The notes under the pieces were generated by a model. The model saw only the letters and a program-made list of their open reading frames with translations, was not told the DNA's origin and ran no database searches. From positions 372,001 to 436,000 of the forward strand of contig NZ_SOQX01000001.1 of the NCBI RefSeq assembly GCF_004366735.1: 64,000 nt of DNA, read 5' to 3'. Made by a program: the position numbers and the translations under genes. Below, piece after piece: positions 47,194 through 61,404 of the stretch (the stretch's first letter is position 1; every line of letters starts with the position of its first letter). Source of the stretch: Thiohalophilus thiocyanatoxydans (lineage in GTDB: Bacteria > Pseudomonadota > Gammaproteobacteria > UBA6429 > Thiohalophilaceae).

Positions 47194-47820
47194 ATGATCA
47201 CACTACGAACCTACGTCTATATTGACTCCCTGCAGCCCCAGTTGGCGGAATACATGGCGACTGTGTCGCAGGGCTTTCCCACCTCGCCGGGTAATGCCTG
47301 TCTGTGGGTGGAGGTGTCGCCGGGTATGGCGGTGCATCGGCTTACCGATATGGCGCTCAAGGCGACCCGCGTGCATCTGGCCCAGCAGGTGGTGGAGCGT
47401 GCCTATGGCTCGATGGTGATTCATCATCGCGATCACAGCGATGTGGAAGAATCGGGACGGGTGATACTCAGCCACCTGGGTTCGGCCGCGACCGATCCCG
47501 AACCCTGCAAGATCGCCTGGCAGGAAACCATCCGCGGCATGACGCCCGATCACACCGTGGTGATCAACCGCCAGGATCGCAAGGGCTCGATGATTCTGCC
47601 CGATCAGAGCATGTTCATTCTCGAGGCCGAGCCGGCCGGTTACATCATCTATGCCGCCAACCAGGCGGAGAAAGCCGCCAATATCACCTTAATCGATGCG
47701 CGCGCGGTCGGCGCCTTCGGGCGCCTGACCCTCTCCGGGCGCGAGGCGGACGTGGACGAGGCCGCCGCCGCGGCCATCGCCGCCGTGCAGCATCCCTGGC
47801 AATCCTGGGGGGCGCGCTGA
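47194..47820 (+). CDS. csoS1D: Carboxysome tandem-BMC shell protein CsoS1D
   Basis: The 208-residue protein has two fused BMC domains that assemble as pseudohexameric trimers, thought to form a gated pore for larger metabolites in the alpha-carboxysome shell. Diagnostic sequence is [60 protein letters not shown], then the second domain with [20 protein letters not shown] and [20 protein letters not shown]. The ATG at 47194 is chosen because the family core starts there; a GTG at 47176 would add six residues. It has its own promoter 45 bases upstream and overlaps the Nudix gene by one base (TGATG). Confidence 0.93.
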
Positions 47821-48377
47821 TGCATCGCCAGGAACTGCTGCGCCTGCTCGAACAACATAAGACCCGTTTCATGGACGAGGCAGGTTTTGTGCGGCGCGCA
47901 ATCGCGTTCGTTGAACAACATCCGGATTGCTTCAAGCGCGAACTGCTGCCCACGCATGTGACCGGCTCGGCCTGGGTGGTCAGCCCGGATCGTTCGCATG
48001 TGCTGATGCTGCACCATCGCAAGCTGGATCAGTGGTTCCAGCCCGGCGGCCATGCCGACGGCGATGCCGATATTCTGCGCGTGGCCCTGCGCGAGACGGC
48101 CGAGGAGAGCGGCATCGATTTGGCGCAGGTCGAATTGTTGAGCGACGCGATTTTTGATGTGGATATTCACTGGACGCCCGCCACGGCGGATGCGCCGGCC
48201 CACGAACATATCGATATCCGTTTTCTGGTGGCGATCGACGATGGATTACCCATTCCGGGTAATGATGAGTCGCATGCGATTGGCTGGGTCTCTTTGCATG
48301 AGGCGATGCGGTTTAACAACAACCGTTCAACCTACCGGATGGTGGACAAGACCCGGCAATTGCGCCACGCGTTTTAA
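47820..48377 (+). CDS. Nudix hydrolase translationally coupled to csoS1D
   Basis: The 185-residue cytoplasmic hydrolase cleaves a nucleoside diphosphate linked to another moiety. Nudix box: GGHADGDADILRVALRETAE then ESGI, matching REUXEEXGU exactly, with the first Glu of the box replaced by Ala (GDA where family relatives have GDE). The preceding TGSAWVVSPDRSHVLMLHHR strand is typical. The ATG shares its A with the csoS1D stop. Its product could act on a sugar-nucleotide or cofactor linked to the Calvin cycle, but nothing in the sequence tells which. The next gene is cbbL, 272 bases on. Confidence 0.85.
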   Translation: MHRQELLRLLEQHKTRFMDEAGFVRRAIAFVEQHPDCFKRELLPTHVTGSAWVVSPDRSHVLMLHHRKLDQWFQPGGHADGDADILRVALRETAEESGIDLAQVELLSDAIFDVDIHWTPATADAPAHEHIDIRFLVAIDDGLPIPGNDESHAIGWVSLHEAMRFNNNRSTYRMVDKTRQLRHAF

Positions 48378-48649: not shown

Positions 48650-50065
48650 ATGGCAGCGAATACCTATCAAGCGGGTGTAAAAGAATACCGCGACAAGTAC
48701 TGGACCCCGGACTATGTCCCGCTGGATACCGACCTGTTGGCCTGTTTTAAGGTCACCGGCCAGCCCGACGTGCCACGCGAGGAGGTTGCCGCTGCCGTGG
48801 CCGCCGAATCATCCACCGGGACCTGGAGTACCGTGTGGTCGGAACTGTTGACCGACCTGGAATTCTACAAGGGCCGAGCCTACCGGATCGAAGACGTTCC
48901 CGGTGACTCGGAATCCTTCTATGCCTTTATCGCCTATCCACTCGATCTGTTCGAAGAAGGCTCGATTACCAACGTACTGACCTCGCTGGTGGGGAACGTA
49001 TTTGGTTTCAAGGCGCTCAAGCATCTGCGTCTGGAAGATATTCGCTTCCCCATCGCCTATATCAAGACCTGCATGGGCCCCCCGGGCGGTATTCAGGTCG
49101 AACGCGATCGTCTGAACAAGTATGGTCGTCCGCTGCTGGGCGCCACCATCAAGCCGAAGCTGGGTCTGTCTGCCAAGAACTACGGTCGTGCTGTCTATGA
49201 ATGCCTGCGTGGTGGCCTGGATCTGACCAAGGACGATGAAAACGTCAATTCCCAGCCGTTCATGCGCTGGCGCGATCGCTTCGAGTTCGTTGGTGAAGCC
49301 ATCCAGAAAGCCCAGCAGGAAACCGGCGAACGCAAGGGTCACTACCTGAACGTCACCGCCCCGGATCCGGAGCAGATGTACGAGCGCGCCGAATTCGCCA
49401 AGGAAGTCGGCAGCCCAATCATCATGCACGACTTTTTGACCGGCGGCTTTACCGCCAATACCGGTCTGGCCAAGTGGTGTCGCAAGAACGGTATGCTGCT
49501 GCACATCCATCGTGCCATGCATGCGGTAATCGACCGTCATCCGAAACACGGTATTCACTATCGCGTGCTGGCCAAGTGTCTGCGCCTGTCCGGTGGTGAT
49601 CAGCTGCATACCGGGACTGTGGTCGGCAAGCTCGAGGGCGATCGTAATTCCACTCTGGGTTTTGTCGATCAGCTTCGCGAATCCTTTATACCGGAAGATC
49701 GCTCGCGCGGGAACTTCTTCGACCAGGACTGGGGCTCCATACCCGGTGTCTTTGCGGTCGCTTCCGGCGGTATTCACGTCTGGCACATGCCGGCGCTGGT
49801 GGCCATCTTTGGCGACGACTCCTGCCTGCAGTTCGGTGGTGGTACTCAGGGTCATCCGTGGGGTAACGCAGCCGGTGCCGCGGCCAACCGTGTCGCACTG
49901 GAAGCCTGTGTCAAGGCGCGTAACCAGGGCCGCGAGATCGAAAAAGAAGCGCGCGACATTCTGACGGATGCTTCAAAAACCAGTCCGGAACTGGCGATTG
50001 CGCTGGAAACCTGGAAAGAGATCAAGTTCGAATTCGAAACCGTGGACAAGCTGGACGTGGGCTAA
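48650..50065 (+). CDS. cbbL: RuBisCO large subunit, form IA, carboxysomal
   Basis: The 471-residue catalytic subunit carboxylates ribulose 1,5-bisphosphate. Active-site elements are intact: [17 protein letters not shown] (catalytic Lys), [20 protein letters not shown] (carbamylated Lys plus Asp and Glu metal ligands), [11 protein letters not shown], loop 6 [11 protein letters not shown] and the [12 protein letters not shown] phosphate site. The sequence start [20 protein letters not shown] is typical of alpha-carboxysome form IA enzymes. AGGAG lies 7 bases before the ATG. It leads the operon cbbL-cbbS-csoS2-csoSCA-csoS4AB-csoS1-csoS1-bfr-acRAF-mcdA-mcdB. Confidence 0.98.
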
Positions 50066-50122
50066 GTCCTGTCCGTTCACGACGCAGCAAACAGCTACCG
50101 AATAAATATGAGGTAAATGATT

Positions 50123-50461
50123 ATGAGCATGTATGAAGCGGGTGATTACCAGACCCAACACACCCTCGAAACTTTTGGCTTTCTGCCCAAGCTGACCCCT
50201 GAAGAGATTCAGGAGCAGATCGCCTACATTCTGGCCAATGGCTGGTCACCGGCAATTGAGCATGAAGATCCCCGTCGGGCTACCGATCATTACTGGACGA
50301 TGTGGAAGCTGCCGTTTTTCGGTGAGACCAATCTGCAGAGCGTCCTCGACGAGCTGGAAGCCTGTCGCCGTTCCTACCCGGATCATCATATCCGGTTACT
50401 CGGGTACGACAGCTATGCCCAGACTCAGGGTCATTCCTTCGTGGTCTTCGAAGGGCGTTAA
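50123..50461 (+). CDS. cbbS: RuBisCO small subunit, form IA
   Basis: The 112-residue small subunit caps the L8S8 enzyme and helps bind CsoS2. Family motifs are ETFGFLPKLTPEEIQEQIAY, YWTMWKLPFFGE (near residue 60) and ACRRSYPDHHIRLLGYD. The ATG at 50123 is preferred over 50117 because GAGGT at 50110-50114 gives the right spacing. It follows cbbL by 57 bases. A stable hairpin lies 18 bases after its stop. A divergent homologue is encoded at 60675-61070. Confidence 0.97.
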   Translation: MSMYEAGDYQTQHTLETFGFLPKLTPEEIQEQIAYILANGWSPAIEHEDPRRATDHYWTMWKLPFFGETNLQSVLDELEACRRSYPDHHIRLLGYDSYAQTQGHSFVVFEGR

Positions 50462-50506: not shown

Positions 50507-50544
50507 CGACACGAATAACCAGTATCGATGTGACGGGGTTTACG

Positions 50545-52506
50545 ATGGCACAGACTGCACAACACAACACAGCACGCGCAGCTTCCAGAGCACGGCGTGA
50601 AGCAATGTCGACCCGGGGCAAGGCCGCACTGCAGGATACCGATCGTACCCGCAGCGCATCGGCCCAGGCCACGACGACGCAAACCGCGCCCGCCAAACCG
50701 GCCGATGCCGGGGTTAAAGCCAAAGGTGATTGCGGTTGTGGGTCCCGGGGTGAGGCCCGTGCCGAGTCGACCCCGCACAGTGATACGCAAACTGCACAAC
50801 CTGCCGGAAAAATGCGGGCAACGGTAAGGACGCGACCACAGAACATCCAGATGAACAGCGCTCGTGCCGCGTCGCTGGCGCGCCGTCAGGCCATGTCCCA
50901 GCGCGGCAAGGCCGGGCTCAATGGTAACGGTATGAGCGAAGCGCAAACCGCACGCGCGGCCAATCCGAAACTGACCGGTCGTGAACTGGCCAGGAAAGTG
51001 CGCGCCGATCGTTGTAAAAACGGCAATACCGGCAAGAAAAAATCCGAGCCGGTCGGTCGCATGCGGCCGAACAAAACCGCCGGTAGTGAAACCGGCGCGG
51101 CCAGCGATGCACCGTGGAAAGTCGGCCAGAGTCTGACCGGTCACGGCCAGACGTTGACCGGCACGATCGTCGGTCGCAGTTCCCAGGTGACCGGCAATGA
51201 GCCCGGTACCTGCAAGTCCGTGACCGGCGTGCAGTACATCGGCGCCGATCAGACCGAAGCGTTCTGCGGCACTTCGGCCAGCGGGGTGCCGAGCAAGATT
51301 ACCAGCTCGCAAACCCGCCAGGGACAGAACGTCAGCGGTACCAATGTGGGTCGATCTTCAAACGTCACCGGCGACGAAACCGGTGCCACGCGTGAGCTGA
51401 CCGGCAGCCAGTACATGCAAAAGGGTAACGGCAAGTCACCGATGAAAGTCGGTACCAGCCAGACCCTGCGTGGCGGCAGCCTGACCGGCACCCAGATCGG
51501 TCGTTCGGAACGGGTGACCGGCGATGAACCGGGCACCTGCAAGTCGGTTACCGGTGACGATTATGTGGGCCAGGAGCAGTACCAGGGTTTTTGTGGCAAG
51601 GCGCCGAAACCGAAGGATCAAAAAGTCGGTATGACCCAGACATTCCACGGCAGGGCGGTCTCGGGCACGATGACCGGTCGTTCCTCGCGCATGACCGGGG
51701 ATGAACCAGGGACCTGCAAATCGGTCACCGGGACACCCTATGCCGGGCTGGAGCAGTACAGCCAGTACTGCAAACCGGAAGAGACCACTTTGGCCAGTGC
51801 CCGTTTTCGTCAGGAGCGTAGCACTCCCGGCTCGGTCATGACCGGCATTCAGCCGGGCCTGAACGGCCATCTGACCGGCGCGGACAAGGGGGCCTGCGAA
51901 CCGCTGAGCGGTACGCCGTATGTGGGTGCGGACCAGTTTGCCGAAGCCTGTCCCTCTGTGCCGGCCGAACCGGGCAGCCCTGATTTTCCGCAGCAACTGG
52001 GCGAGACCCCGTGGGGCCAGTTCAGTGTGCAGAGTCCGGTACATGCCAGTCAGGGCGACGAACATTTTGATGTGACCGGCAACCGCTATGAGCAGGGCAA
52101 GATCACCGGCCCGTTCGGGATGGCCGGTGGCAAAGTCACCGGCACTGAAGAAGCCCGTTTCGGCAAAGGGGGTCACGCGGAGCCGATGACCGCGCCGATC
52201 CCGGAAACGGCTGAACAGGTTCAGGGTCGCGTCAAATCCCGAATCAGCGGCGAAGGCATTGATGTGGGGCTGAAGATCACCGGCGACGACTGGGATCGTG
52301 GTGACCGGGTGACCGGCACCGAAGGCATGACGGCCAGTAAACGCAACCCGACCCGTCAGGGCGGACGTGCGACCGGTGCCATGCAGATGAAGCCGGAGAT
52401 GAAACGTAATGAGGATGTTCCCGAGCCCATCAGTCCGGTGACCGGGGGCAGTGGTAATACAGACAAAGGTTCACTGATTACGTATTCCGGAGGTGCCCGG
52501 GGTTAA
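50545..52506 (+). CDS. csoS2: Carboxysome assembly scaffold CsoS2, short form
   Basis: The 653-residue disordered scaffold links RuBisCO to the shell. N-terminal domain: two clear RuBisCO-binding N-repeats (ARAASRARREAMSTRGKAAL near residue 9, ARAASLARRQAMSQRGKAGL near 100) and a degenerate third (LTGRELARKVRADRCKN). Middle region (about 190-480): about five M-repeats with VTGDEPGTCKSVTG and paired Cys. C-terminal region (about 490-653): KITGPFGMAGGKVTGTEEAR, DVGLKITGDDWDRGDRVTGT, and ending SLITYSGGARG. It is shorter than the roughly 870-residue H. neapolitanus protein by loss of repeats. The ATG at 50545 is preferred to GTG at 50530. I could not identify a frameshift site for a short isoform. 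Confidence 0.95.
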   Translation: MAQTAQHNTARAASRARREAMSTRGKAALQDTDRTRSASAQATTTQTAPAKPADAGVKAKGDCGCGSRGEARAESTPHSDTQTAQPAGKMRATVRTRPQNIQMNSARAASLARRQAMSQRGKAGLNGNGMSEAQTARAANPKLTGRELARKVRADRCKNGNTGKKKSEPVGRMRPNKTAGSETGAASDAPWKVGQSLTGHGQTLTGTIVGRSSQVTGNEPGTCKSVTGVQYIGADQTEAFCGTSASGVPSKITSSQTRQGQNVSGTNVGRSSNVTGDETGATRELTGSQYMQKGNGKSPMKVGTSQTLRGGSLTGTQIGRSERVTGDEPGTCKSVTGDDYVGQEQYQGFCGKAPKPKDQKVGMTQTFHGRAVSGTMTGRSSRMTGDEPGTCKSVTGTPYAGLEQYSQYCKPEETTLASARFRQERSTPGSVMTGIQPGLNGHLTGADKGACEPLSGTPYVGADQFAEACPSVPAEPGSPDFPQQLGETPWGQFSVQSPVHASQGDEHFDVTGNRYEQGKITGPFGMAGGKVTGTEEARFGKGGHAEPMTAPIPETAEQVQGRVKSRISGEGIDVGLKITGDDWDRGDRVTGTEGMTASKRNPTRQGGRATGAMQMKPEMKRNEDVPEPISPVTGGSGNTDKGSLITYSGGARG

Positions 52507-52526: not shown

Positions 52527-54062
52527 ATGATGAGTTCACGTCGCAAACAAAGCCGTTCGATTGCCTGGGTGCCTACCGCACCTGTCGGGCGTCCCGGCGC
52601 CCGGGGCGTTGACGCTGACAAGCCGGCAACGCAGGGCACTGCGCGCGCGAACCTCGCTTCGGTGCAATCCGGGCGGCATCCGCTGAGCAATGCCACGGAG
52701 AATACCCGGCTGTTTGATTACGAGCAGCGTACCAAAGCGGCCTTTGACGCGATCGTGCCGACGTTGAAACAGATTTCCGGTCTGCAGCATGAAGCGGACT
52801 TTGAACGGCGCGCCCAGGCGCTGGCCCAGGAACAACTCGGGTTCGCGTTGCCGGCGACTATCCTGGCCGATGCCTGGGTAACCCAACTGGATATGCGCCG
52901 GCTGTTTGCCTGGTGTGTATTCCAGACGTACCAACGATTTTGTGATGACTTTTTTACGAACAGTTTCCTAAGTCGTCTGGAAACGGAATTCCAGACTTTT
53001 TTAATCGAGTGCGGCTTTCACACACTGGACATTTCACCGTGTGCGGATGGTCGCCTGGCACACGTAATCAGTTATGTATTGCGTCTGCCGCATAAAGCAG
53101 TGCGTCGCAAGTCCTACGCCGGTGCCATGTTTGATATTGAAGACAGCATCGAAAAGTGGACCGAAACTGAGTTGCAACGGTTCCGCGAAGGGATACCGAC
53201 TACCGCTGATATGCCCACGCGTTATATGAAAACCGTGGTCTATCACTTCAGCTCAAGCGATCCCGAGCATGAAGGTTGCGCGGCGCACGGATCCGATGCG
53301 GGGCGCGCCGCGCAGGGCGGGCTGGAACGGCTGAAAGCGTTTCAGACCGCCGTGGAAAACAGCTTTTGCTGCGGCGCCTCGATCGATCTGATGCTGATCG
53401 GGCTGGATACGGACAACGATACGATTCGCATCCACATGCCGGATCGCCATGGCGAAATCGATCTCAAACGCTATCTGGATGCGGGAGATCTGTATGACGC
53501 TACGCTGTCGATGCAAGCCGCACAGGCACAGGAGTATGTGTCTGAACAGGTCCGGCAGGCCGGCGGTGAGATGAGCAACGGGATGCAGAGATTGATGGGC
53601 TATTTGCTGGTCAACAACTTCTCGCAGATCGAATATGTGCGCCAGTACTACGACGGCCGCTACCGGGATATCGGTCATGCGGAACGGTTTATCGGCGCCG
53701 GTATCGGTTTTGAGGAAGTGCAGTTACGCAACCTGACCTACTTTGCGTATATGCAAACCGTGGAGGAGGCAGCAGCCGATCTGGATGTGGGGATCAAGAT
53801 ATTCAGCAAGCTGAATGTCTCTCATGGTCTGCCGATTCCGCTTGTGGTGCGTTTTGACTACCACGGCCAGGTACCCGGGGCTCGCGAGCGAGCGGTTGGA
53901 CACTGCCAACGCGTCGATGCGGCCCTGAACGACCGTTATGCGGATCTGGCCAGCAACGGACTACTACACACGTTGCAGGTCGTACGTGATTGTCATGCCG
54001 GTGGCCGAATCGAGGTGATTGGGACATCGGTAATGGATGAAGTGACTGAGGAGGCACACTGA
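52527..54062 (+). CDS. csoSCA: Carboxysomal carbonic anhydrase CsoSCA
   Basis: The 511-residue shell-associated enzyme converts bicarbonate to CO2 inside the carboxysome. The diverged beta-class active site is intact: Cys172, Asp174 and Arg176 in SPCADGRLAH, His240 in VVYHFSSSD and Cys251 in HEGCAAHG, with the same H-to-C spacing as the characterised enzyme. The N-terminal 55 residues are disordered and basic (MMSSRRKQSRSIAWVPTAPV), where CsoS2/RuBisCO contacts are known in relatives. It starts 20 bases after csoS2 and its stop shares a base with csoS4A (TGATG). Confidence 0.96.
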   Translation: MMSSRRKQSRSIAWVPTAPVGRPGARGVDADKPATQGTARANLASVQSGRHPLSNATENTRLFDYEQRTKAAFDAIVPTLKQISGLQHEADFERRAQALAQEQLGFALPATILADAWVTQLDMRRLFAWCVFQTYQRFCDDFFTNSFLSRLETEFQTFLIECGFHTLDISPCADGRLAHVISYVLRLPHKAVRRKSYAGAMFDIEDSIEKWTETELQRFREGIPTTADMPTRYMKTVVYHFSSSDPEHEGCAAHGSDAGRAAQGGLERLKAFQTAVENSFCCGASIDLMLIGLDTDNDTIRIHMPDRHGEIDLKRYLDAGDLYDATLSMQAAQAQEYVSEQVRQAGGEMSNGMQRLMGYLLVNNFSQIEYVRQYYDGRYRDIGHAERFIGAGIGFEEVQLRNLTYFAYMQTVEEAAADLDVGIKIFSKLNVSHGLPIPLVVRFDYHGQVPGARERAVGHCQRVDAALNDRYADLASNGLLHTLQVVRDCHAGGRIEVIGTSVMDEVTEEAH

Positions 54063-57085: not shown

Positions 57086-57334
57086 ATGTCGGCTCTCAGC
57101 AAGGAGCTCATTTCTTCGGTGCTGCATGTTGTGGTGGGCTTCAATTCCCGGCGTGTCCGCACGACAAGACAAGTTGTCCGTAGACCAAGCGTCTTTGGTA
57201 CAAGCCTGGCGTATATTTTCTCACCTGCGAACCTCCCGGTCGACAGCTTAACCGTGCATGAAGTTTGTTTAGATGCGCCGGTGCGCACTATGGTGCTACT
57301 GCGTGTTGTTAATGATTCCGAAGTGATGGAGTAA
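57086..57334 (+). CDS. Small hypothetical protein in the carboxysome/SulP operon, 82 residues
   Basis: I do not recognise the family. The protein opens with an amphipathic helix-like stretch (MSALSKELISSVLHVVVGFN), has an Arg-rich middle (NSRRVRTTRQVVRRPSVFG) and an acidic, hydrophobic C-terminus. It has no signal peptide or TM. GAGG lies 8 bases before the ATG, and the stop is only 8 bases from the SulP start, so the two are translated together. Its basic middle could bind RuBisCO, RNA or the acidic face of a shell protein (speculation). No other frame in the stretch is better. Confidence 0.65.
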   Translation: MSALSKELISSVLHVVVGFNSRRVRTTRQVVRRPSVFGTSLAYIFSPANLPVDSLTVHEVCLDAPVRTMVLLRVVNDSEVME

Positions 57335-57342
57335 AACCTGTT

Positions 57343-59496
57343 ATGTCGGCATGGTTGACTACGTTGTTTCCCTTCCTTCGCTGGTTCCCCATGAGCCGCG
57401 AGGTGATCCGTGCGGATCTGATCGCGGGGATCACGGTCGCCCTGGTGCTGGTACCGCAGAGCATGGCCTATGCCCAGCTGGCCGGGCTGCCGGTGGTTTA
57501 CGGGTTATATGCATCGTTTGTGCCTGTGATTGTCGCATCCCTGTGGGGATCATCCAGTCAGTTACACACCGGGCCGGTCGCCATGCTCTCCTTGATGTCG
57601 GCCGCGGCATTGATTCCCCTGGCCAGTCCGGGCAGTGCTGAATTTATCGAACTGTCGGTGATGCTGGCCCTGATGGTCGGAATCCTGCGTCTGGCGCTGG
57701 GTTTGTTCCGACTCGGGGCGATTGTCAATCTGCTCTCCAGTCCGGTAATTGTCGGTTTTACCAATGCCGCAGCGTTGATCATCGGTCTGTCGCAACTGAG
57801 CAAGGTCATTGGCGTACCTTTCCCGCGCACGGAATCGTATCTGGCCGATTTGTGGCGTGTCATTGAGCAGCTCCCTTATCTTCACCTGGAAACTGTCCTG
57901 TTTGCTGCCGGGGCGTTTTTGCTGATTTACGGATTGAAAAGAAAACTGCCCTCATTGCCGGGCGTTCTGATCGCAGTGGCGGTGACGACCCTGATCAGTG
58001 CCCTTGTGTCGTACGAGAACAAAATGCAGGTCACCCAGGCGCAGATCCAGAGCGAGAAAGTTGTCTCGGCAATGACGGATTTCGCCCGGGCAAAACAGCT
58101 CATTAACAAACTGACCGAGGAAATTTCCTCGCTCAATCAACAGGCCGGCAAACTGGAGGAACAGGCCGGGCTGGAGAATATTGAGCAGGCCGCCGAATTG
58201 CGCGCCACGGCAGCGGTTCGTAAACATGAGCTGAATATTCTGAAAAAAGAACAGACTCTGAAACGTGTCGCCCTGCACAAGATGACCTTGCAAGGAGTGC
58301 AAACACCGGCCGGGCAATGGCAGTTCTATCCTGAAGAAGCGGTACCCGATAACAGGGAGAGCGACGAAAAAAGCTGGCGTTTTGACAGTATCGAGGACGG
58401 TCAGATTGTTCTGTCGTCTGGCGGCGCCGTGGTGGGAACAATTCCCGAAGGCCTGCCTGACTTCAATGTGCCGACCCTGCAGTGGGATTTGATGCTTGCG
58501 CTGTTGCCGGCCGCGCTGGTCATGGCGTTGATCGGCTTCATGGAAGCCACCTCCATCTCGAAGGCGATTGCCAGCACGACCGGTGAGCGGGTCGATACCA
58601 GCAAGGAACTGGTCGGTCAGGGCCTGGCCAATATTGCCGGCAGCTTCTTCAGTTCCTATACGGTCAGTGGTTCGTTCTCGCGATCCGCCGTCGCGGCCAG
58701 AACCGGTGCGCGAACCGGCATGTTTGCTATTATCAGCGCGGTTGCGGTGGTGCTGGTCCTGCTGTTTTTCACGACATATCTCTATCATTTGCCACAGGCG
58801 GTCCTGGCCGTTATCGTGATGATGGCGGTGTTCAGCCTGATTCGCATCAGGCCGCTGATACAGGCCTGGCGTGTGGACAGAGTCAGCGCCGGAATCGGTG
58901 TGGTAACGTTTCTAGCCACCTTGCTGATGGCTCCTGCCATCGCCAACGGTATCCTGCTGGGGATCAGTCTGACAGTCCTGCATTATCTGATACGGATCAT
59001 GAGGCCGCGCGCGGAAATTGTCAGTCACAAGGAAGATGGCTCCCTGGGAGGTATCAAAGCACATCACCTGAAACCCATCAGTGAACTCTATGTCCCCGTG
59101 CGATTCGATGGGTCGTTGACCTTTATCAATGTGGCTTATTTTGAGGATATAGTTCTGGAAGCATTGAGTGAGTTTCCGCGTGCCAAGGTGATTCTGGTGA
59201 TCGGCAGCAGCATCAATGAAATCGATGCTTCCGGGGAAGAGAAAGTACGGGAGGTCGCCCGTCGTTTACGTGATTCCGGTGTACAGCTTATGTTCAGCGG
59301 GCTCAAGCATCAGGTTATGCAGGTCATGGAAAGCAGCGGCCTGATGGATGAACTGGGCAGAGAGGCGTTTTTTGCTGACAAGCAGACCGCCTTGCAGACC
59401 CTGAAAAACCTTTTCGAAAAAAGGGTCATAGAGCCCCGGGATTCAGACGACCGGACTGTTTACCGTGGTGGCAATGTCACCAGTCATCTTCTTTGA
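57343..59496 (+). CDS. SulP/SLC26-family anion transporter with STAS domain and coiled-coil insertion
   Basis: The 717-residue protein belongs to the family that includes bicarbonate importers. It begins with the SulP core (REVIRADLIAGITVALVLVP then MAYAQLAGLPVVYGLYASFV), has further motifs MALIGFMEATSISKAIASTT and SGSFSRSAVAARTGARTG, and ends in a STAS domain (about 585-700, GSSINEIDASGEEKVREVAR). Location next to carboxysome genes suggests bicarbonate as substrate. An insertion of about 140 residues (about 222-365) breaks the usual core before GTIPEGLPDF, with a heptad-patterned stretch (SEKVVSAMTDFARAKQLINK, then EEISSLNQQAGKLEEQAG). Relatives are about 560-590 residues. By standard topology the insert would face the periplasm. 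Confidence 0.88.
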   Translation: MSAWLTTLFPFLRWFPMSREVIRADLIAGITVALVLVPQSMAYAQLAGLPVVYGLYASFVPVIVASLWGSSSQLHTGPVAMLSLMSAAALIPLASPGSAEFIELSVMLALMVGILRLALGLFRLGAIVNLLSSPVIVGFTNAAALIIGLSQLSKVIGVPFPRTESYLADLWRVIEQLPYLHLETVLFAAGAFLLIYGLKRKLPSLPGVLIAVAVTTLISALVSYENKMQVTQAQIQSEKVVSAMTDFARAKQLINKLTEEISSLNQQAGKLEEQAGLENIEQAAELRATAAVRKHELNILKKEQTLKRVALHKMTLQGVQTPAGQWQFYPEEAVPDNRESDEKSWRFDSIEDGQIVLSSGGAVVGTIPEGLPDFNVPTLQWDLMLALLPAALVMALIGFMEATSISKAIASTTGERVDTSKELVGQGLANIAGSFFSSYTVSGSFSRSAVAARTGARTGMFAIISAVAVVLVLLFFTTYLYHLPQAVLAVIVMMAVFSLIRIRPLIQAWRVDRVSAGIGVVTFLATLLMAPAIANGILLGISLTVLHYLIRIMRPRAEIVSHKEDGSLGGIKAHHLKPISELYVPVRFDGSLTFINVAYFEDIVLEALSEFPRAKVILVIGSSINEIDASGEEKVREVARRLRDSGVQLMFSGLKHQVMQVMESSGLMDELGREAFFADKQTALQTLKNLFEKRVIEPRDSDDRTVYRGGNVTSHLL

Positions 59497-59504
59497 GGAA
59501 AAAA

Positions 59505-60617
59505 ATGCCCAAACGTGTAGACAAAAGCCGGCGGGGGAAATATAAAAACGGGACTATGGATAATTCCTCCGATTATACCTACACCCCACCGGGGGCCATG
59601 CCGGATTTTCTGCTTCGTCACGCAACCCTGCGGCAGCTACAGGTATTCGAAACCATTGTCCGGTTGGGCAGTTTTACCCGTGCGGCTGAAGAGCTGTTTT
59701 TGACCCAGCCGACGGTCTCCATGCAGATCAAGAAACTGTCCGATGTGGTTGGCATCTCTCTCTTTGAACATGTCGGCCGCAACGTCGAGCCTACCGAGGC
59801 GGGGATGGAGGTCTATCAGGCCTGCCGGGATATTTTCAACATTATGGCTAACCTGGAGATGAAGATTTCCGATCTCAAGGGTATGAAACAGGGCCGGTTA
59901 CGCCTGGGGGCAATTACCACGGCCAAGTATTTTGCCCCGGAAGTGCTGGGCGAATTCAGTGTACTTTACCCCGGGATCGATGTGGCCCTGAAAGTGACCA
60001 ATCGGGACCGGATCATTGAGCGTATGCGGGCCAACGAAGATGACCTTTATATCATGGGGCAGGCCCCCTCCGACGAGATGGAAATGGTGGCTTTTCCTAT
60101 CGCGCCAAACCCACTGGTGGTCATGGCACCGCGTAACCATCCCCTGGTCGCTGAAAAGAACATTCCCCTGGAGCGGATTGCAGAGGAGCCTTTCATTCTG
60201 CGTGAGCCGGGCTCGGGAATTCGTGATGCCATGTTGCGCAAGTTCGATGAACACAAGATGCGGCCCAGAGTCAAAATGGAACTGGGCAGTAACGAGGCGA
60301 TCAAACATGCCATCGTGGGCGGGCTGGGTCTGTCGGTGCTGTCGTTACATACATTGACGCTCGAAGGGACCGAGGGGCCGGTGGCGATTCTGGATGTGGA
60401 AGGTTTCCCAATTATGCGTCAATGGTACCTGGTTTATCCGAAGGCCAAGGAATTGTCCCTGGTCTCCAAGGCATTTGTCGATTTTGCCCGGGGACTCGAG
60501 ACACAGATGCGTGATCGCATGCGGAATATCTGGCCCGATCTGGAACAGTATCTGGGCAGCAAAGACGCTGACTCGACCATCGAAAAAGACACTTCGGGCA
60601 AGAAAAAAAGCGCCTGA
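59505..60617 (+). CDS. cbbR: LysR-type regulator of CO2 fixation, CbbR
   Basis: The 370-residue regulator has a LysR helix-turn-helix (about 40-95, RATLRQLQVF then FTRAAEELFLTQPTVSMQIK) and a co-inducer domain with GRLRLGAITTAKYFAPEVLG, typical of CbbR, which senses Calvin-cycle metabolites. The ATG at 59505 is chosen because GAGGAAAAAA precedes it; an in-frame TTG at 59493 overlaps the SulP stop. The first 35 residues are a basic, unusual N-terminal extension. It is the last gene of the operon, in the same direction as cbbL rather than divergent from it. Confidence 0.92.
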   Translation: MPKRVDKSRRGKYKNGTMDNSSDYTYTPPGAMPDFLLRHATLRQLQVFETIVRLGSFTRAAEELFLTQPTVSMQIKKLSDVVGISLFEHVGRNVEPTEAGMEVYQACRDIFNIMANLEMKISDLKGMKQGRLRLGAITTAKYFAPEVLGEFSVLYPGIDVALKVTNRDRIIERMRANEDDLYIMGQAPSDEMEMVAFPIAPNPLVVMAPRNHPLVAEKNIPLERIAEEPFILREPGSGIRDAMLRKFDEHKMRPRVKMELGSNEAIKHAIVGGLGLSVLSLHTLTLEGTEGPVAILDVEGFPIMRQWYLVYPKAKELSLVSKAFVDFARGLETQMRDRMRNIWPDLEQYLGSKDADSTIEKDTSGKKKSA

Positions 60618-60674: not shown

Positions 60675-61070
60675 TCAGGAGGCCTGTGCCTGTTGATAAT
60701 TGGCGATCAGGGTCGGTTGTGTGGAGGTGGGTTCCGGCAGGGGCTCGGCGGGAGGGGGTGTCTGATGGGTGGGGGTATGGATCCAGTAGATAAAACGGGA
60801 TTCGGGGCGAACCTTTTCAGCATACAATCTTACCGGATTCAGGGGGTAATGCAGCCGACACGCCAGGATCGCCTGGTTGAGTGATTTGGCATTTTGCAAA
60901 GCAAAGAACGGGCTTTGCCATTGTTGCCAGCTGAGCGTGAGGTCGGAGGAGGGCACACCATACTGAATACGCACTATCCAGTCTCCTCGCAGACTTTGCT
61001 GTACGAGGTTCTCCACCTTGTTAAACAGGGCCAGGGAAGTCAGTCTGACAAAATATTGTTCCAGCTGCAT
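60675..61070 (-). CDS. RuBisCO small-subunit-like protein with proline-rich tail
   Basis: The 131-residue protein is convergent with cbbR. Its residues 27-82 align without gaps to residues 37-92 of the CbbS encoded at 50123 (constant offset of 10). About 18 of 56 positions are identical, including Trp31/41, Pro40/50, Trp48/58, Trp51/61, Pro-Phe-Phe 54-56/64-66, Ala-Cys-Arg 70-72/80-82, Tyr-Pro 75-76/85-86 and Arg-Leu 81-82/91-92. The usual CbbS N-terminus is replaced, and the C-terminus (about 99-131) is Pro/Thr/Gln-rich (TPTHQTPPPAEPLPEPTSTQ). A perfect TATAAT (61088-61093) lies upstream. Function unknown; a RuBisCO-binding or decoy small subunit is inference. Confidence 0.75.
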   Translation of the reverse strand: MQLEQYFVRLTSLALFNKVENLVQQSLRGDWIVRIQYGVPSSDLTLSWQQWQSPFFALQNAKSLNQAILACRLHYPLNPVRLYAEKVRPESRFIYWIHTPTHQTPPPAEPLPEPTSTQPTLIANYQQAQAS

Positions 61071-61404
61071 AGATTTCGCCCTGTATTATATCCGCGCGCT
61101 TTGCACGGGTATAATGCTCGCTGTATGATAAAGTCGGCTTTTAGAAAAATTCATAATAATTGGACCGGGTTAATCCTCAGTATTATTCTCAGGATTGATA
61201 AAGAGTAGCTTGGTGAAAAAAGAATAGGAAGAGTATCTTGGATTGTTTATTTCTATAAAGTTATCGATATGTATCTATGGGTGTAGTTACCTTTATATTG
61301 TGTATTTGAAATGATTTTTGCAGCGGATAATCGCCACAGAAACAACGGTGTTTAAGCTGGTAGCCAGCAAAAAACATAAAGTGTAAATAGCGACAAAATT
61401 TGTT
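61071..61404. other. Intergenic stretch between the small-subunit-like gene and the MFS gene
   Basis: 334 AT-rich bases. It contains a minus-strand TATAAT for the left gene, a plus-strand TATAAT near 61111, and the fourth ATCGAT-type site at 61263-61297. Minus-strand open frames here are shadows of the MFS gene. No other gene is seen. Confidence 0.5.
61263..61297 (+). promoter_or_regulatory. Fourth ATCGAT-type site, upstream of the MFS gene
   Basis: ATCGAT (61263-61268), ATGTAT at the -35 place (61269-61274), 17-base spacer and TTTATA (61292-61297). The upstream CWATC half-site is not at the 15-base spacing. It suggests, weakly, shared control with the carboxysome genes. Confidence 0.4.

Follow-up and report, generated by a model that had tools for sequence, protein, structure and literature searches.

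The window analysed here, a stretch of 64,000 nucleotides from Thiohalophilus thiocyanatoxydans (contig NZ_SOQX01000001.1, positions 372,001 to 436,000), carries a complete alpha-carboxysome locus on its plus strand, beyond which, on the opposite strand, lies a stand-alone gene resembling that of a RuBisCO small subunit. We call this gene SSUL, a name that we also use for the small family of RuBisCO-small-subunit-like proteins to which its product belongs. The features on which the argument depends are the following:

47194-47742, plus strand: CsoS1D, located by tblastn
47820-48365, plus strand: a Nudix gene
48650..50065, plus strand: cbbL of the carboxysome operon, an open reading frame with homologues in the loci of relatives
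50117..50461, plus strand: cbbS, the ordinary small subunit (PF00101, 132 bits)
50530..52506, plus strand: csoS2 (PF12288)
52527..54062, plus strand: csoSCA, the presumed carboxysomal carbonic anhydrase, an open reading frame with homologues in the cso loci of relatives
57343..59496, plus strand: a SulP-family transporter with a STAS domain (Pfam)
59493..60617, plus strand: cbbR, a LysR-type regulator, an open reading frame 86% identical in the second species of the genus (G038)
60675..61070, minus strand: SSUL, 131 aa (PF00101, 33.2 bits; a copy 80% identical at the same place in G038; dN/dS 0.19)
60771..61022, minus strand: the small-subunit-like (SSU-like) domain of SSUL, residues 17-100 (AF2 pLDDT; VIA Z up to 10.8 to RuBisCO small subunits)
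60813..60815, minus strand: the codon of K86 of SSUL (by alignment, Lys in 8 of 8 intact SSULs and Asp in 18 of 19 CbbS)
60678..60770, minus strand: a Pro-rich tail of low confidence, residues 101-131 (AF2 pLDDT; composition)

After csoSCA the genes follow one another as csoS4A/B, two csoS1 genes, a bacterioferritin-like gene, a pterin-dehydratase-like gene (PF01329), parA, an McdB-like gene, SulP and cbbR. The name csoSCA is presumed from sequence and gene order, and the other gene names in the window that stand without a family match are likewise presumed. A short open reading frame without a Pfam match lies between the McdB-like gene and SulP (57086-57334).

The original prediction had placed a gene at this position next to cbbR, and a 131-aa reading frame is indeed present there, with cbbR as its convergent neighbour. 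Among the genomes compared (numbered with G, the window's own being G000), G038 keeps the SSUL frame in the same place at 80% identity and with a dN/dS of 0.19, while the opposite-strand reading of the region is interrupted by stops in that species, which together argue that SSUL is a real gene. A second pair of copies, from G279 and G409, has a dN/dS of 0.25, compared with 0.07 for cbbS, 0.08 for cbbR and 0.06 for csoS4A; SSUL is thus under purifying selection, weaker than that on its neighbours. As it is convergent to cbbR and divergent from an MFS gene, SSUL must be transcribed alone or by read-through. The promoter of its own that had been ascribed to it was not borne out: the sole sigma-70-like site found lies on the plus strand, with none on the minus strand, and a TATAAT just upstream is not conserved in G038. 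In the interval that separates SSUL from the MFS gene, positions 61222-61279 are strongly conserved with G038, the bases closer to SSUL less so, and this segment may be a control region of either gene.

SSUL is a true homologue of the RuBisCO small subunit. The profile search that had been proposed as a check returned a significant match (E 5.2e-8; 33.2 bits against a cut-off of 27) of residues 17-84 to positions 13-80 of PF00101 (RuBisCO_small), in one stretch and as the only Pfam domain at E 1 or better; NCBIfam gave no match at that threshold. BLASTP aligns SSUL with the CbbS of its own locus, with 18 of 66 residues identical (E 6e-9, a value for a single comparison) and with the WxxW, PFF, ACR, YP and RL hallmarks common to both, as had been read from the letters. 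The alignment is ungapped, in agreement with the earlier claim, and the offset of 10 given with it holds only if CbbS starts two codons after 50117, being 12 when counted from 50117 itself. Apart from SSUL, PF00101 matches two genes of the genome, the carboxysomal cbbS and a gene that belongs to a second RuBisCO operon. The region of that second operon (L161; G000:C1:615001-635000) also holds another SulP-like gene, along with genes that we take to be CbbQ- and CbbO-like.

Structure prediction of the protein alone, also suggested beforehand, gave a small-subunit fold. The AF2 model runs helix-strand-strand-helix-strand-strand over residues 12-98, with ten-residue mean pLDDT values of 74 for residues 11-20 and 81-94 for residues 21-100, and is to be read with the fact that the AF2 alignment contained CbbS, which leans the model toward this fold. 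Its best VIA-align match is a RuBisCO small subunit (Z 10.8, rmsd 3.0, 97 residues), and the best 50 matches by Foldseek and by VIA, judged by title and profile match, are RuBisCO entries or the SSU-like domain of RuBisCO activase, the Nostoc example of which (PDB 6HAS) reaches Z 9.1 by VIA.

What separates SSUL from CbbS is a pattern of losses. For comparison we used 19 hand-picked CbbS sequences, 10 of form IA and 9 of form IC, the forms being presumed from sequence. Over residues 17-84 SSUL is homologous to both forms. Nineteen CbbS positions are conserved in at least 85% of the set; the SSULs keep six (W31, E36, W48, F56, C71 and R81, in SSUL numbering), keep two partly and lose 11, namely the T-F-x-F-L arm, Q22, Y25, Y47, M50, P54 (changed in six of eight), E67 and one Asp, replaced by K86. 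The absence of the usual N-terminus had been noticed for the window's protein and extends to the family, the T-F-x-F-L-P motif missing from all eight intact members. Ten CbbS residues are described as near-universal in excerpts of PMC9164163 (S9, L11, P12, Y25, E36, W48, L53, P54, F56 and E67). Among these W48 is kept in 8/8 SSULs, F56 in 7/8, E36 in 6/8, P54 in 2/8, and L11 and P12 in 1/8 each, while S9, Y25, L53 and E67 are kept in none; the N-terminal columns of this alignment align poorly. Since the arm and most of these residues are gone, SSUL is unlikely to be built into the L8S8 enzyme as CbbS is. Consistent with this, no SSUL sits 3' of cbbL in the loci read, and an ordinary cbbS is present in all nine genomes that carry SSUL, so that service as an ordinary small subunit appears unlikely from sequence and gene place. 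The family also has invariant residues of its own, D30, A84, K86 and P89, which hold across five families of bacteria.

The exchange at K86 may bear on how carboxysome scaffolds see this fold. The Asp it replaces is D98 in the window's CbbS, which by the numbering of 1svd we infer to be D94 of H. neapolitanus. Excerpts of PMC10614612 put the start of the CsoSCA peptide near the CbbS loop D94-S99, whose residue Y96 makes a stacking contact with an arginine of CsoS2. With Lys in place of Asp in all eight SSULs, these contacts suggest that the scaffold-recruiting face is altered throughout the family, a change that as regards function is a correlation. The Asp is conserved in form IC CbbS too; it may have a structural role, and its change need not concern CsoS2.

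We found SSUL in nine genomes from five families (coded f1, f128, f37, f132 and f58), with eight copies intact and one broken. A single-protein search of the window's own order (40 genomes) recovered it in G000, G038, G029 and G030, with matches in G015 and G001 being ordinary CbbS; only 4 of these 40 genomes were also in the class draws searched by profile, and a diverged copy could have been missed in the other 36. Profile searches of a class draw (369 genomes) added G279, G075, G170 and the broken copy in G336, and a profile search of the order of G279 (11 genomes) added G409; in the orders of G170 (4 genomes), G075 (3) and G336 (8) the profile found no further copy. A phylum draw of 398 genomes held no SSUL apart from the window's own: its other 19 matching genomes score at most 52.2 bits and have ordinary CbbS with the FSFLP arm in their loci, and in the class draw the match in G152 (51.9 bits) is likewise an ordinary CbbS, of 146 aa and with the arm. 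A scan of plasmids gave no match to SSUL, nor did a single-protein scan of genome contig records, among which the profile matched only two.

The family is well delimited from CbbS. In the class draw an eight-row profile gives the four intact SSULs 148-190 bits and ordinary CbbS never more than 52; the broken copy in G336 scores 51 bits, and what distinguishes it from CbbS is that it follows SulP and has an interrupted frame. A tree was built from 89 core columns with the 19 CbbS included, and in it the eight intact SSULs form one side of a branch with support of 100/100. Within the family the branches are long and their order unsure, and the tree is compatible with an origin from either form of CbbS, a topology joining SSUL with form IC not being rejected (AU p 0.445). 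By tblastn, the 20-kb cso stretches of the SSUL-free relatives G001, G015, G037 and G410 contain no broken SSUL, the matches there falling on cbbS. Two weak SSUL-like tblastn matches were seen elsewhere, one upstream of cbbL in G279 (L157:4094-4237; E 0.004, 29% over 48 aa), which is possibly due to chance, and one in G029 (L156:19412-19507; E 0.006).

All nine SSUL genomes carry csoS2 (PF12288). That gene occurs in 71 of the 369 genomes drawn from the class, in 7 of the 40 belonging to the own order and in 6 of the 11 in the order of G279. SSUL occurs in 5/71 csoS2-positive and 0/298 csoS2-negative genomes of the class draw, and in 4/7 and 0/33, respectively, of the own order. Pooled over 413 distinct genomes the counts are 9/80 with csoS2 and 0/333 without it (p 2.6e-7), a value that is only a guide, as the genomes are related and two of the orders were searched because they hold SSUL. 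When the class draw is confined to the 136 genomes with any small-subunit match, the association is weak, with 5/71 against 0/65 (p 0.059), and approximate, since all 71 are counted within the 136 although at least G060 and G091 are csoS2-positive yet outside them. The position of the gene is therefore the stronger argument. Six of the nine copies lie in or beside a cso or CO2-concentrating locus. In the window and G038 SSUL follows cbbR on the opposite strand; in G075 it is flanked by CsoS1D and cbbR; in G030 it comes between SulP and cbbL, on the same strand as cbbL and 354 bp before it; in G170 it follows cbbR and SulP; and in G336 the broken copy stands at the end of one run with cbbR and SulP (L165:973-10646), the shell genes being on another contig. 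We take the run in G336 to read McdB-cbbR-DabB-DabA-P-II-like-SulP, the Dab and Mcd names being presumed. In G075 the genes that follow cbbR and adjoin SSUL (L046:7079-8438) are presumably an SbtA-like sodium-bicarbonate transporter and its P-II-like partner. The copies in G029, G279 and G409 lie away from the cso locus in the stretches read. A survey of cso loci, as had been recommended, thus does find SSUL in other carboxysome genomes, though in a minority only (5/71 in the class draw). The remaining 66 of those 71 do without it, so SSUL is optional and carboxysomes do not need it. A tie between SSUL and the loss of CbbQ/CbbO from the cso locus, looked for by eye, was dropped, as loci with and without SSUL mostly lack both; the SSUL-free G037 is one that, by our reading, has CbbQ/CbbO genes in its cso locus, and the window's genome has its CbbQ- and CbbO-like genes beside the second RuBisCO.

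Downstream of the conserved domain the family is variable. The proline-rich tail seen at the outset is confirmed for the window's protein, with seven Pro in the 31 residues 101-131. The proteins of G279, G409 and G075 have a linker (rich in Pro in G279 and G409) that leads into a terminal hydrophobic segment with a Kyte-Doolittle mean over 19 residues of 2.02, 1.86 and 1.99, respectively, a hydrophobicity attained by 50, 6 and 5 of 2000 shuffled tails. Basic residues precede this segment, as in tail-anchored proteins, and it is possible that it forms a membrane anchor; in the AF2 model of the G279 protein the hydrophobic tail has no helix (block means 49-59). As a feature of the whole family a membrane tail was rejected, as only three of the eight intact copies end in a hydrophobic stretch, unfolded by AF2. 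Elsewhere the tail is basic (G030), polar (G029) or absent (G170, 99 aa).

We propose, with about even confidence, that in some bacteria with alpha-carboxysomes SSUL serves as an accessory protein that docks on RuBisCO and whose tail would modulate packing or placement. The proposal builds directly on homology, predicted fold, membership of one clade, purifying selection, co-occurrence with csoS2, gene neighbourhood and residue losses; that SSUL binds RuBisCO, and where, with what competition and to what target, is what we infer beyond these. SSUL keeps the predicted small-subunit fold and is probably not incorporated into L8S8 as CbbS; it would dock on assembled RuBisCO or on CbbL with vacant CbbS sites, while its variable C-terminal extension would decide the place or partners of RuBisCO, in three genomes perhaps the membrane. 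According to excerpts of PMC10614612, one patch of RuBisCO serves the known carboxysome binders other than CbbQO. This shared patch, together with the SSU-like domains of CcmM and activase as models, suggests docking at that patch or in empty CbbS seats. Should the docking site be the groove between CbbL dimers and CbbS, SSUL would be a competitor of CsoS2 and CsoSCA and would in this way tune the amount of RuBisCO that is packed.

Most likely SSUL works like the SSU-like domains of CcmM and activase, by analogy and without being a member of either group. Those of the beta-carboxysome scaffold CcmM (PDB 6HBC, a complex, and 6MR1) are, like SSUL, arm-less small-subunit homologues linked to carboxysomes, and bind RuBisCO equatorially without displacing RbcS (excerpts of PMC7059596). 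However, CcmM joins a gamma-carbonic-anhydrase-like domain to repeated SSU-like modules, whereas SSUL is one free-standing domain in a protein of 131 aa, and the SSUL family profile gives CcmM (6mr1) 13 bits (E 0.61) against 54 bits for the best RuBisCO small subunit. The activase/ALC domain shares the small-subunit fold and has been proposed to bind either at the equatorial position or by filling an empty RbcS seat (excerpts of PMC7059596), but forms the C-terminal part of an AAA+ protein, whereas in SSUL PF00101 was the only domain found at E 1 or better. The original idea of a small-subunit-like module that acts other than as a subunit fits the loss of the arm and of the near-universal residues; the linker suggested along with it has become less likely, since SSUL has a single domain, no repeats and no second known domain. 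A single-domain protein, tail-less in G170, would not be expected to cross-link RuBisCO by itself.

The best of the alternatives, though an improbable one, is an assembly factor that would occupy the CbbS site of CbbL dimers or octamers during assembly and then give way to CbbS. A small-subunit fold shorn of most near-universal CbbS residues might befit such a releasable place-holder, and the position of SSUL shortly before cbbL on the same strand in G030 would suit it as well. The locus, however, already has the pterin-dehydratase-like gene, of a kind named as a RuBisCO assembly factor in excerpts of PMC4207490, and in G001, G015 and G410 the locus has a largely similar set of genes without SSUL.

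Slightly more improbable still, in our estimate, is a more specific form of the docking proposal, by which SSUL would be an alpha-carboxysome module, arisen separately from the cyanobacterial ones, that docks at the CsoS2/CsoSCA groove. It would keep RuBisCO, or carboxysomes that are still growing, on the membrane close to where bicarbonate is taken up, either through a membrane tail of its own (G279, G409, G075) or through a partner that the adjacent transporter gene encodes (SulP in G170 and G030).

It is unlikely that SSUL is instead a soluble partner of the adjacent SulP inorganic-carbon transporter for which the small-subunit fold has been reused. SulP lies directly 5' of SSUL in G170 (46 bp), G030 (60 bp) and G336, where SSUL is broken, and one gene, cbbR, separates the two in the window and G038; the presumed bicarbonate-transporter-like and P-II-like genes of G075 and the possible membrane tail in three genomes point the same way. 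Against this, BLASTP found no SulP near SSUL in G075, G279, G029 or G409 (about 9-10 kb on each side, with 2.7 kb on one side in G409), and the SulP of the window shares only about 27% identity with its counterparts in G170 and G030. Moreover, in G015 a SulP that is 91% identical to that of G170 follows cbbR with no SSUL behind it (L159:5648-8504), which indicates a gain or a loss of SSUL next to a transporter that was itself conserved.

We regard it as equally unlikely that SSUL is a decaying, functionless duplicate of cbbS. The patchy distribution, the broken copy in G336 and the higher dN/dS than that of cbbS would agree with decay, but the ratios are well below 1, the intact copies form one clade with invariant residues of its own over five families, and the position of the gene is shared by two species of the genus. 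Least likely of all is that SSUL takes the place of CbbS, under certain conditions and in part of the L8S8 population, as an alternative stoichiometric small subunit. Homology and fold would allow this; the absence of the arm in all eight intact copies, the change of most near-universal residues and the ordinary cbbS in each of the nine genomes speak against it.

The stand-alone small-subunit-like protein had been put forward with the remark that no description of such a protein was known from alpha-carboxysome loci, and we too found none described there in the open-licence PMC full texts, as represented by excerpts, including PMC4207490, PMC8262871, PMC9164163, PMC8580825 and PMC4499774. The nearest case in these excerpts is a short second cbbS of Pseudonocardia sp. 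N23, which, like SSUL in G030, lies in a carboxysome locus upstream of cbbL and which lacks L53, P54 and F56. At 63 aa it was judged unlikely to be functional (PMC9164163, in part), and our comparison with SSUL is by description only.

Finally, the handles on RuBisCO known from alpha-carboxysomes are short peptide motifs of CsoS2 and CsoSCA (excerpts of PMC10614612), and SSU-like modules that bind RuBisCO have been described from beta-cyanobacteria, in CcmM and activase. If the proposal is true, the same domain would have been recruited as a handle on RuBisCO in a second carboxysome lineage, and SSUL would be a small natural binder with which RuBisCO could be steered in engineered carboxysomes.
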